Of a stretch of 40,596 bases of DNA, positions 2,623-7,117 are shown piece after piece (positions within the stretch are counted from its first letter, which is position 1; every line of letters starts with the position of its first letter). The stretch comes from Acidobacteria bacterium RIFCSPLOWO2_12_FULL_66_21. GTDB taxonomy: Bacteria; Acidobacteriota; Vicinamibacteria; Vicinamibacterales; 2-12-FULL-66-21. The DNA lies in contig MELC01000016.1 of assembly GCA_001767455.1 (NCBI GenBank), forward strand, positions 1 through 40,596. The letters run 5' to 3'. The notes under the pieces are model-generated. The model ran no database searches and was not told the origin of the DNA. It was given only the letters and a program-made list of their open reading frames with translations. Position numbers and translations under genes: made by a program.

Positions 2623-2678
2623 CAGCTTCCAGTTTCCAGCTTCCTGCTTCCAGCTCTCACGCTGATAGCTGATAGCTA
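2623..2678. repeat. Degenerate heptamer array (CAGCTTC type)
   Basis: Eight consecutive 7-nt steps: CAGCTTC, CAGTTTC, CAGCTTC, CTGCTTC, CAGCTCT, CACGCTG, ATAGCTG, ATAGCTA. It fills the gap between the convergent yggX and ATP-grasp genes, and its last unit contains the ATP-grasp stop codon (2676-2678). Confidence 0.8.
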
Positions 2679-3947
2679 CATGGCGGCGACGGTAAGGGCC
2701 GGATCGATTACGAAAGCCAGCCGCGCGTGCGCGCTTCGCAGGGCGCCGATCACGTCATCGCGCGAGTCGCCACGCGCGAAGATGAATCCCAGATAGCCCG
2801 CGGCCTCCGGCAGCGGCTCGATCAGCTGATCGGGCTTTGCCGTGATGCGCACCTCCTCCACCAGCGGCACGGCCGCGGCGTCCGCGATCCCCTCGACGCG
2901 TTTGAAGAACCCGCGTTTCGGGATCGGAATCATCATGACGCCGGCCGCCCGCGGTTCCCGGGCGTACGAGCTGACGTCTTCGCCGCACGCATGACGCAGG
3001 AGTACCTCCTCCAGCGCCACGAGCCCGGATTCACCGCCGCGAGCCAGCCGGAGCACCTTCGAGCACAACCCGCCGATCGGACGCGCGGCCACTTCGAGGA
3101 CGAACACCCCGCGCGGACCGACGCGGCACTCCGCGTGAACGGGTCCGTCGGTCAGGCCCAGCGCCGATGCCCCGCGTTGGATGTGCGAGACGATCGAATC
3201 CTGGACGGCCCGTGTTTCCGCCGATGGCGTCACATAGATCGTCTCCTCGAAGAACGGGCCATCGAGGGGATCGGGCTTGTCGAAGGTGGCAAAGACCCGC
3301 AGCGAGCCTGCGGTCAGCACCCCCTCGACGGCGAACTCACGCCCGTCGATGTATCCCTCGACGAGCGCGCGATCTTCGAGGCCGCTCCTGATCACACGTA
3401 CGTCCCTGCGCGCGAGCAGCGCACGCACGCGTCCGAATGCGCGCGACAGTTCCTCCGGCGAATCGGCGCGCACGACGCCGCGGCTGCCGGACAGGCCGAT
3501 CGGCTTCACGACGCACGGAAACGACACGCCGTCGAGCAACGCGGGGTCGATCTCGGAGGTCAGCGGAAGCTCGCGGAACCAGGGCGTCAGCAGCCCGGCG
3601 GCGCCAAAGCGCTCGCGCGCGAGTGTCTTGTTGGCGCTCGCCCAGGCCGCGTCGGGAGGGTTGCCGCGGAGACCGAGTGCCTGCGCCACGCGCGCCGCAA
3701 GGACGACGGGGCGGTCACCCACGGCGATGACGCCGTCAATCGGCCGTTGCTGGTGGGCCGCGACGAGCGCGGTCAGCGAGGCGTCCGCGTCATGAAAGCG
3801 CACCGCCACCGCGCCATCGCGCCACGGGTCGTCGAGGTTGCGGCAGCGATCGGTGCCAAAGACAAGATCGATCCCCAGCCGCTCGGCCGAGTCGCCGAAG
3901 GAGCGCAGCTGATATCCCGTGGTGGTCGATAAGAGGAGAATCCGCAA
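2676..3947 (-). CDS. ATP-grasp ligase with LAL-type C-terminal domain
   Basis: ATP-grasp enzyme of 423 residues, likely joining a carboxylate to an amine with ATP hydrolysis via an acyl phosphate. The N-terminal ~110 residues resemble the pre-ATP-grasp Rossmann domain (ILLLSTTTGYQLRSFGDSAERLG). The grasp domain follows, with KPIGLSGSRGVV as the nucleotide-binding loop and HAECRV...VLEVAARPIGG as the metal-binding Glu/Arg segment. The last ~100 residues (GVMMIPIPKRGFFKRVEG to the end) resemble the C-terminal domain of L-amino-acid ligases; the substrate cannot be told. The start is a TTG with no visible Shine-Dalgarno, directly bordered by a simple repeat array. It lies downstream of the radical SAM gene on the same strand (142-bp gap), so a shared pathway is possible. 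Confidence 0.85.
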   Translation of the reverse strand: MRILLLSTTTGYQLRSFGDSAERLGIDLVFGTDRCRNLDDPWRDGAVAVRFHDADASLTALVAAHQQRPIDGVIAVGDRPVVLAARVAQALGLRGNPPDAAWASANKTLARERFGAAGLLTPWFRELPLTSEIDPALLDGVSFPCVVKPIGLSGSRGVVRADSPEELSRAFGRVRALLARRDVRVIRSGLEDRALVEGYIDGREFAVEGVLTAGSLRVFATFDKPDPLDGPFFEETIYVTPSAETRAVQDSIVSHIQRGASALGLTDGPVHAECRVGPRGVFVLEVAARPIGGLCSKVLRLARGGESGLVALEEVLLRHACGEDVSSYAREPRAAGVMMIPIPKRGFFKRVEGIADAAAVPLVEEVRITAKPDQLIEPLPEAAGYLGFIFARGDSRDDVIGALRSAHARLAFVIDPALTVAAM

Positions 3948-4084
3948 GTCAGTCGTTAGTCGTCAGTCGATAGTCAAGGTCAAAGTCAAAGTCCAAGTCC
4001 AAGTCAAAGTCCGGCCGAGCTGCGAGCCGCGAGCCGCGAGCCGCGAGCCGCGAGCCGCGAGCCACGAGCCACGAGCCACGAGCC
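3946..4084. repeat. AGTC-type hexamer/heptamer array followed by (G/A)CGAGCC heptamers
   Basis: From 3946 to about 4011 there are degenerate AGTC-containing repeats with mixed 6- and 7-nt period. From 4022 to 4084 there are nine clean heptamers, six GCGAGCC then three ACGAGCC. The array separates the radical SAM and ATP-grasp genes and ends five bases before the TAA at 4090-4092. At its other end it overlaps the TTG start of the ATP-grasp gene. Confidence 0.85.
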
Positions 4085-4089
4085 ACGGA

Positions 4090-5499
4090 TTAGATCAGAG
4101 CCACCTGCTCCGATGTCGGCTCCGCTCAACAGTACCAAGGTTCGTCGAGGTACGGCACCGTCGCGCGCGGCATCGCTCCCATGTCGCGCCGCGGCGGCGG
4201 CGCTGCGCTCGCCGCGCGATGGGCTGCGTTCCAGATCCGGCAGAACACGGCGCTCCGCGACGCGTCGAGCCGCATGCCGACCACGTGCGAGATCGTCTCC
4301 TGCAGCGCGTCGACTCGCGGGTCGGGATGCGTCCATGGGTGCGTGAGCCAGGTCGCATCGAACGGCCCGGCGAGTGCGCGGATATCCGGGAGCTCCAGCA
4401 TCCGCGAACCCTGCGGGATGAGCAGCCGGATCGCAAACTGGATCGGCGCGACGTGCTCCACGAGATCCAGACGATCGATGGTGTGAAGCAGGTCGAGATA
4501 CGTCCCGATCGTCGTCCACGGCGTGAAGGCGACGAACGTGGGCGCGAGCGTGAGGCCGGCTTCACGGAACCGGGTGACGACCTCCTCGAAGTCCGCGCGT
4601 GTGTGTCCCTTCTCCAGCTTCGCCAGCACCTCGTCGTCCAGCGATTCGACCGCGCTCGTCACGAACGCGCACCCGGTGTCGCGCAGCACCGGGAGCGCGG
4701 CGGCGTGCTTCAGCAGGTGCTCGACCTTGATGGTGACGTCGTAGGTGACGCCGGGACACTCGCGCGCGAGCCGCTGAACGATTTCGAGCGCGGTGCGCGG
4801 GCCGTTGAAAAAGTCCGGATCGCCGAACGTGATGTGCCGCGCCCCCGACTCGACCTGCGCGCGAATGTCGGCGAGCACGGTGTTGACGGCGACGATACGG
4901 AAGCGGCCGTCGTAGACCGGCACGATGGGACAGTGGCGGCACCGGTGCTTGCAGCCGCGGCTGGCCTCCGTGTATCCCACGATCCGCCGGTTGTCGCCGG
5001 TGTGCAGCGTGGCGTATCGGGTGAGCGGCGGAAGGGTATCGCGCGCGGGAACACGGAACTCGAGCCGTGGCAATTCCTGCGAACCCGGGGTCTGACCCCG
5101 AAATGCAGCCGCAGGCGACATTTCGGGGTCAGACCCCGAACCGAAGCGTGCCAAGTCCACGAGCGCCTGCTCGAACTCGCCGCCCAGAATCGTACCGACA
5201 CCGCCCGCGCGCAACAACGCGTCGTTGAGCGGCGCGTAAAGCCCGTACGCGACGAGGCGCGCGGACGGGTTCCACTCGCGCACGCGGTCGATGACGGGAA
5301 GCGCAAGCCGCGTGGCGGTGTGCATCGGAAGATAGAACCCCACCAGCTCGGCTGCCTTGACGGCCTCTTCCGGCAAACGCTCCTTCGCAAGATCGACGCA
5401 CGTCACGCCGATGCCCGCCTCGCGCAGCCACGCCGCCGGCGATGCCAGCCCGAAGGGCTGCCGGCCGAGGTCGTACGTGGAGATTAAAAGGACAGACAC
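4090..5499 (-). CDS. CUAEP-tail B12-type radical SAM selenoprotein (UGA = Sec at 4126-4128)
   Basis: Radical SAM enzyme of 469 residues if the in-frame TGA at 4126-4128 is selenocysteine (residue 458); otherwise 457. The N-terminal ~115 residues resemble a cobalamin-binding fold. The radical SAM core holds the 4Fe-4S motif Cys183-x3-Cys187-x2-Cys190 (SRGCKHRCRHC) and GDPDFFNG. The frame reads LDEPWYC, then TGA, then AEP and TSEQVALI before TAA (4090-4092). This matches the C-terminal CUAEP/CCAEP motif of a named radical SAM (seleno)protein family (recalled, not searched). A SECIS-like hairpin follows the UGA. Adjacent Cys457-Sec458 could form a selenenylsulfide; the substrate is unknown. Residues ~121-140 are encoded by a 53-bp palindrome that looks inserted. 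An ATP-grasp gene follows on the same strand. Confidence 0.88.
4094..4114 (-). promoter_or_regulatory. Bacterial SECIS-like hairpin downstream of the UGA
   Basis: In the mRNA sense, AUCGGAGC pairs with GCUCUGAU (8 bp, one G-U) around the loop AGGUG. The stem begins 11 nt after the UGA at 4128-4126, and the apical GGU falls about 20 nt downstream of it. The E. coli fdhF element has its apical hairpin at nearly the same distance and also exposes a GGU in the loop, which SelB recognises. The element lies inside the coding sequence, as is normal for bacterial SECIS, and ends one base before the TAA. Assignment rests on structure read by eye. Confidence 0.75.
5086..5138. repeat. 53-bp perfect palindrome inside the radical SAM gene
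   Basis: Two perfectly complementary 20-bp arms (5086-5105 and 5119-5138) surround a 13-bp loop. Each arm carries the near-palindrome GGGGTCTGACCCC. The element lies in the coding region between the cobalamin-like and radical SAM domains, where it encodes roughly SGSDPEMSPAAAFRGQTPGS without breaking the frame. It resembles mobile REP/MITE-like palindromes; I saw no second copy in this window. Confidence 0.85.

Positions 5500-5623: not shown

Positions 5624-7117
<1,494 letters not shown>

Follow-up and report, generated by a model that had tools for sequence, protein, structure and literature searches.

A predicted CUAEP-tail radical SAM selenoprotein of Acidobacteriota and its ATP-grasp ligase partner

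Does the radical SAM gene on the minus strand at positions 4090-5499 end at its in-frame UGA codon, or is this codon read as selenocysteine (Sec), and with which partner might the encoded protein work? The gene lies in a stretch of 40,596 nucleotides, contig MELC01000016.1 of Acidobacteria bacterium RIFCSPLOWO2_12_FULL_66_21, the whole of which is called the window here. Based on comparative sequence analysis, we conclude with a probability of roughly 95% that the gene encodes a selenoprotein of family NF040546, in which the UGA at 4128-4126 stands for Sec within a conserved W-[YF]-C-U-A-E-P tail, and that an ATP-grasp ligase is its partner; the substrate lies outside this joint claim.

Reading frame, tail and family

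From a GTG start codon at 5499 on the minus strand, the frame runs to the TGA at 4128-4126, which is preceded by the TGT codon of Cys457 (4129-4131) and directly followed by the codons GCG-GAG-CCG for Ala-Glu-Pro (4125-4117). The terminal TAA is found at 4092-4090, with 11 residues between it and the TGA-encoded residue. With the TGA written as U, the tail reads DEPWYC-U-AEPTSEQVALI and the product comprises 469 residues including Sec458; translation with table 11 gives a protein of 457 residues, 12 fewer than the read-through product. An earlier note on this DNA had given the arrangement of Cys, TGA and Ala-Glu-Pro at 4090-4131, a product of 469 residues with the TGA as Sec and the loss of 12 residues in ordinary gene calling, all of which proved exact. 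A Pfam scan of the protein returned the radical SAM domain alone (PF04055, 53 bits), and the CX3CX2C motif for the radical SAM cluster (Cys183, Cys187 and Cys190, encoded at 4930-4953) is invariant in the alignments of homologues.

The read-through protein matches the NCBIfam family NF040546, 'CUAEP/CCAEP-tail radical SAM (seleno)protein', with 636.5 bits over positions 1-467 of the 468 positions of the profile, which has a curated equivalog cut-off of 500 bits. The next-best family is ArsL (NF040542) with 276 bits at a cut-off of 450, and the other 16 listed families remain below 50 bits; the match to NF033070 (AprD4) has 28.9 bits. The CUAEP/CCAEP family that the earlier note had brought up is real, and the gene, with its full-length match above the cut-off, belongs to it; its kind was thus already known under an NCBI name, as a database family. 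The window protein has the same tail, and nothing sets it apart from the family. The family name foresees Sec and Cys forms of the tail, but the Sec-Sec (UU) and Sec-Cys (UC) forms of some Anaerolineae described below fall outside it. Literature searches for 'CUAEP' or 'CCAEP' and for 'RCCLKC', the tail motif of the ArsL family, returned no paper in the collection searched, and NF040546 is absent from the main text of a selenoprotein review (PMC13188914). Neither the family name nor the earlier note covers the ATP-grasp partner, the forms with UU or UC, or the relationship to ArsL, which are the additions made here, although an earlier treatment in the two Haft papers cited by that review is possible.

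The radical SAM gene also contains an in-frame 25-nt inverted repeat (CGGGGTCTGACCCCG...) at 5086-5138, which falls in a low-confidence loop of the predicted protein model at about residues 121-138. The genome holds eight such sites at no more than one mismatch, six of which form three close pairs, and the reversed control gave none.

Selenocysteine at the UGA codon

The host had been predicted to possess the machinery for Sec insertion, and selA, selB, selC and selD were all found in the window's genome (6.48 Mb in 91 contigs, given as 100% complete). SelA, SelB and SelD score 534.2, 347.8 and 359.6 bits, respectively, each above its own cut-off, and the tRNA-Sec scores 59.5 bits and has the anticodon tca according to ARAGORN; a second match to RF01852 above the cut-off is a tRNA-Ser according to the same program. 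In addition, selD (G000:C42:51949-52878, L044) is a second UGA-containing gene in this genome, with a frame that reads ...tgc-gcc-ggt-TGA-gcg-agc-aag....

Within the phylum, 61 of 396 genomes have a protein above the NF040546 cut-off. The tails of the 63 phylum loci, the window included, read C-TGA-AEP or C-TGA-SEP in 47 cases and CC-AEP in ten; six are unclassed, namely three in which the gene runs off the contig (L029, L040 and L102), one with an upstream in-frame TAG, yet with the tail C-TGA-AEP (L028), and two with C-TGA-AEP in the DNA behind a broken frame (L098 and L101). Eighty named loci of other genomes, taken from at least 569 relatives, have TGA (57), TGC (16) or TGT (4) at the Sec site or belong to the three UU/UC forms from Anaerolineae, in which TGA replaces the codon of Cys457: L135 and L154 read W-Y-TGA-TGA-AEP and L166 reads W-Y-TGA-TGC-AEP. 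In a set of 298 Anaerolineae genomes, 34 are above the cut-off, and the 30 loci obtained comprise 28 CU, one UU and one UC form; five of the 35 matching genomes yielded no locus, so that the tail counts cover the remaining 30, and the UU locus (L205) represents the genome of L135 again, the UC locus being L208. Across the 173 loci (63, 80 and 30), every readable tail has TGA or a Cys codon at the Sec site, and the vicinal pair, as predicted from the codons, exists as CU, CC, UU and UC. Among the matches listed, the record names of the family span Acidobacteriota, Methylomirabilota, Chloroflexota, Latescibacterota, Gemmatimonadota, Calditrichota, Pseudomonadota and others. One metagenome-assembled record is named Bifidobacterium breve (L123), but its CCAEP gene groups with genes of the Vicinamibacterales type and the name is probably wrong.

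The codons that follow the UGA point in the same direction. In 137 loci with TGA as the second codon of the pair, a count that includes near-copies and repeat records, the next codon encodes Ala (GCG, GCC, GCA or GCT) in 132 and Ser in five, the Glu codon is GAG in 100 and GAA in 37, and a CCN codon for Pro is present in all. As the AEP codons vary almost only synonymously after the TGA, the read-through tail is conserved beyond chance. On all three points that the earlier note had named as possible grounds against Sec, the outcome favours its proposal: selA, selB and selC are present in the genome, AEP is conserved after the TGA, and the homologues continue past the Cys. The Cys forms for which it had suggested looking exist as well (10 of the 63 and 20 of the 80 loci).

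Sec forms and Cys forms also differ in the company of selA, which is above the cut-off in 47 of 47 Sec-form genomes versus five of ten Cys-form genomes of the phylum set (Fisher 6e-5), and in 27 of 30 Sec-type versus 11 of 20 Cys-type genomes of a second set (Fisher 0.007), with repeat records kept in both counts and neither value corrected for common descent. The second set covers 50 of the 80 named loci, that is, all 20 Cys forms, the three UU/UC forms and 27 of the 57 CU forms. Incomplete genomes are a possible reason for the three Sec-type genomes in which no selA above the cut-off was found (G422, 3.2 Mb; G424, 1.3 Mb; G435, 6.9 Mb). On a tree of 157 proteins cut before the tail, 13 switches between Sec and Cys are needed, nine of them forced by well-supported branches, and the pair has therefore been exchanged repeatedly. 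The tree was calculated with FastTree only and covers 157 of the 173 loci; six repeats of phylum-set records, the repeat L205 and all rows with an incomplete tail were left out. In this tree, the clades of the UU and UC forms are sisters, and UU may have been an intermediate between CU and UC. The consecutive UGA codons of L135, L154 and L205 predict a Sec-Sec pair in genomes that have selA, and the pair of L166 and L208 is swapped (W-Y-TGA-TG[CT]-AEP), with Sec preceding Cys. This natural series of CU, CC, UU and UC forms provides ready variants with which the role of a vicinal selenothiol in radical SAM chemistry could be studied.

A SECIS-like hairpin of bacterial type lies within the coding tail at 4094-4114 on the minus strand. 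It consists of the stem arms AUCGGAGC (4114-4107) and GCUCUGAU (4101-4094), which form eight pairs including one G-U pair, and the loop AGGUG (4106-4102). In a fixed register after the UGA, at least five of six stem pairs are formed in 103 of 132 distinct Sec-type sequences, but only in four of 27 distinct Cys-type sequences (Fisher 8e-10). The mean pairing of the Sec types is 5.18 of 6, compared with 3.99 when the 3' arms were reshuffled (sd 0.06, maximum 4.20 in 2000 shuffles), and stem positions switch among GC, AT, CG and TA in a compensatory manner. The shuffles ignore relatedness and the register was chosen from the same sequences, for which the Cys types, being under a like coding constraint, serve as the control; their own pairing is marginally above that of the shuffles (0.0555 of shuffles as high). 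Forty registers were tried on the Sec types, of which (21,5) gave 103 sequences, (22,3) gave 101 and (20,7) gave 87, the latter two containing most of the pairs of (21,5), and the rest gave 30 or fewer. We consider it shown at the level of the alignments that the hairpin serves as a predicted SECIS element, which is kept by compensatory changes in the Sec forms and mostly lost in the Cys forms. Folding of single sequences was set aside as evidence: 48-nt folds contain the hairpin in the window (z -1.56) and in many homologues with mixed z-scores (L051 +0.46, L100 +0.4), a 41-nt fold of the window favours a competing structure (z -1.14), and the window hairpin alone is not unusually stable. An Rfam scan of 3950-4300 gave nothing above the gathering score and two chance matches below it. 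The Cys-form genes L119 and L156 still have a SECIS-like hairpin, as expected of recent changes from Sec to Cys.

Because the family match, the sel genes, the restriction to TGA or Cys codons and the compensatory hairpin agree, the proposal that the TGA is read as Sec, giving a vicinal Cys-Sec pair, is supported. With Sec at this position, a gene that ordinary gene calling truncates regains 12 residues, the probable reactive one among them. The same truncation affects the record of a named isolate, Thermomicrobium roseum DSM 5159 (L213, 7938-9374), in which WP_012643191.1 is annotated as ending at the TGA; as the frame goes on with AEPLEDPSG..., the public record lacks the Sec tail.

An ATP-grasp ligase as genomic partner

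An ATP-grasp amino-acid ligase is encoded on the same strand at 2676-3947, directly downstream of the radical SAM gene, from whose TAA it is separated by 142 bases. Its Pfam domains ATPgrasp_N, ATP-grasp_4 and LAL_C2 (PF18130, PF13535 and PF18603) are all above the cut-off. Two tandem arrays with units of 6 nt and 7 nt occupy positions 3972-4084 between the two genes.

In 43 of the 63 phylum loci, a relative of the ligase is encoded no more than 1.2 kb away from the radical SAM gene, and all but one of the 20 other phylum loci come from genomes with a ligase elsewhere. Among the 80 named loci, 58 have the relative, in 57 of these within 1.2 kb, and its order and orientation differ. When the same 396 phylum genomes were searched with a ligase profile (A2, E <= 1e-60), 68 were found to have the ligase: 63 genomes have both genes, two the radical SAM gene only, five the ligase only and 326 neither. 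The ligase is thus present in 63 of the 65 genomes with a radical SAM gene (61 above the NF040546 cut-off plus four with fragments), compared with five of the 331 without (Fisher 1.7e-64, uncorrected for descent). The two genomes with the radical SAM gene only are 74% (G335) and 71% (G099) complete, and the match in one of the five ligase-only genomes (G017, G057, G226, G278 and G325) is clearly weaker (G325, 277 bits). Genomes with both genes and genomes with neither stand side by side in 11 taxonomic families (f3, f4, f7, f8, f9, f15, f19, f35, f37, f38 and f85), and the link between the genes is therefore not one old shared inheritance. Co-occurrence across these genomes shows the ATP-grasp amino-acid ligase to be the near-obligate predicted partner of the radical SAM gene. 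No ligase record from T. roseum was among the matches listed (12 of 253 plasmid records) in a search that covered plasmids. With this near-perfect co-occurrence, a family without a stated function becomes a testable two-step pathway, and it points to a small molecule that can be sought.

Other neighbours are less constant. A divergent peptide transporter gene of the POT/PTR2 family (5624-7117, plus strand; PF00854, 216.2 bits) is at most a candidate member of the system, and ORFs of the transporter cluster, some of them antisense, occur in 23 of the 63 loci. In 21 of the 63 phylum loci, the radical SAM gene has a gene for a NifU-type Fe-S carrier on its own strand nearby, in 19 of them within 320 bases (examples are L047, L048, L058 and L094; Pfam was run on four of the 21). 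Several loci have DUF169 genes close to the radical SAM gene; in L122, L139 and L159, the CUAEP gene and the ATP-grasp gene are separated by a DUF169-type gene. In L126 (6603-9279) and L141 (6518-9249), the CUAEP gene is followed by genes for a DUF169 protein, the corrinoid protein-associated methyltransferase CpaM and an HgcAB-like fusion protein, of which the HgcAB-like protein is above the cut-off in both loci and CpaM in L126; a relative of the ATP-grasp ligase was not found in these two stretches.

Possible chemistry and relation to known systems

The closest other family, ArsL, offers a possible mechanism. ArsL has been proposed to transfer the 3-amino-3-carboxypropyl (ACP) group of SAM to arsenic, As(III), by a non-canonical cleavage of SAM (PMC8552651), and ACP transfer to arsenic is likewise stated in a second paper (PMC12159101). 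The CUAEP profile A1 matches three ArsL-type plasmid proteins with the chain end KRCCLKC at 333-367 bits; sequence identity to the RCCLKC relatives is only 28-34%. In an alignment that used 30 of the 51 A3 rows, 60 positions are constant in the three ArsL-type proteins and in at least 95% of the 30 CUAEP rows, and 58 of these, CX3CX2C among them, lie outside the tail pair. That the CC pair of ArsL is aligned with C457/C458, across a long gap, may be opportunism of the aligner, and this part was set aside as doubtful. Plasmids of Priestia and Alicyclobacillus (one each) carry the RCCLKC gene near an ATP-grasp gene, with arsinothricin-related genes around them; the arsL stretch of Pseudomonas amygdali has no annotated ATP-grasp gene. 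The predicted model of the window protein (mean pLDDT 90.3, pTM 0.90, Sec treated as Cys) has the fold of AprD4, OxsB and MgmA. From the ArsL kinship, the shared constant residues, the RCCLKC clusters with ATP-grasp genes and the model fold, we infer an ArsL-like route, in which the radical SAM enzyme would use ACP chemistry from SAM, the vicinal Cys-Sec pair of the tail would hold or present a metalloid or chalcogen species as the soft acceptor, the product would be a new amino acid, and the ATP-grasp ligase would join it to another amino acid. As a whole, this mechanism is tentative, and we give it somewhat less than even odds.

A strong rival, which is only slightly less probable to us, is that the protein is a selenoprotein in which the Cys-Sec tail acts as a redox arm or as a ligand of an Fe-S cluster and not as a substrate holder, with a chemistry that may be that of an ordinary 5'-deoxyadenosyl radical. 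The C-terminal Cys-Sec pair of thioredoxin reductase is a redox arm of this kind. The confidence of the model rises again around the motif, with a mean pLDDT of 67 at residues 441-450, 78 at 451-460 and 54 at 461-469. The closest folds are those of AprD4 and other radical SAM enzymes that are not known for ACP transfer. The nearby NifU-type carrier genes fit this reading as well, and PMC11048331 discusses, for the ACP-forming Dph1-Dph2, tandem cysteines next to the ligands of a cluster. On the other hand, the best other family by sequence is ArsL and not AprD4 (276 versus 28.9 bits), and ArsL-type proteins have a vicinal Cys pair of their own at the chain end.

It is unlikely, in our view, that the product has nothing to do with soft elements and that the enzyme instead performs, for example, an AprD4-like change of a carbon substrate followed by ATP-grasp ligation. 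In its fold, the model is most similar to the radical SAM diol dehydratase AprD4 (PDB 6fd2), with Z 28.1 and an rmsd of 3.7 over 409 residues, although the sequence match is weak and the structural alignment stops at residue 434, short of the CUAEP tail. The wide spread of the family over phyla and the neighbours scanned, in which no conserved ars context was seen, also suit a carbon substrate. Arsenic context was sought by clustering of neighbour ORFs and by family scans. The 25 commonest families in a scan of 97 neighbour ORFs included no ars family, and neither did the scanned neighbours of the radical SAM gene within the window; the 97 belong to 225 ORFs collected at 30 of the 80 loci, with length and GC3 as the basis of selection, and are hence in part spurious. 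However, the retention of Sec and the exchange among CU, CC, UU and UC point to soft-atom chemistry, as do the DUF169, CpaM and HgcAB-like genes after the CUAEP gene in L126 and L141, the families of which are named for corrinoid and metal methylation. That the UGA is a true stop with untranslated codons behind it, as automatic annotation has it (e.g. WP_012643191.1) and as the unremarkable single-sequence fold of the window would allow, is hardly credible, and read-through as an artefact is rejected at the sequence level, given the conserved AEP with its synonymous variation, the Cys homologues that read through, the compensatory hairpin, the complete Sec machinery and the second UGA gene selD.

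Returning to the ArsL-like route, several features relate the two predicted enzymes to known systems and set them apart. The nearest solved relative of the ligase is the L-amino acid ligase BL00235 (PDB 3vot; 243.5 bits, profile positions 20-412 of 418), with which it shares the ATP-grasp fold and the LAL_C2 domain; the partner ligase forms a separate family tied to the CUAEP gene, and dipeptide formation by it is a prediction. The ATP-grasp proteins beside the RCCLKC enzymes of Priestia and Alicyclobacillus are only distant kin of the window ligase (109-138 bits), and their genes are not orthologous to it. The window protein shares CX3CX2C with the ArsL/RCCLKC-tail family of arsinothricin biosynthesis, but it fails the curated cut-off of that family, ends in a CUAEP instead of an RCCLKC tail, and no arsinothricin genes were seen beside its gene; each of the two chains nevertheless has a vicinal pair at or near its end. 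One might speculate, and we hold this fullest version to be improbable though a little less so than a product without a soft element, that the CUAEP enzyme and the ligase make up a pathway of two genes that is common among uncultured Acidobacteriota, Chloroflexota and members of other phyla. On this view, a vicinal Cys-Sec or Sec-Sec pair would hold arsenic, selenium or another chalcogen as the soft element on which an ACP-derived amino acid is built, this amino acid would next be sealed into a dipeptide, and the pathway would be a selenium-dependent cousin of arsinothricin biosynthesis.
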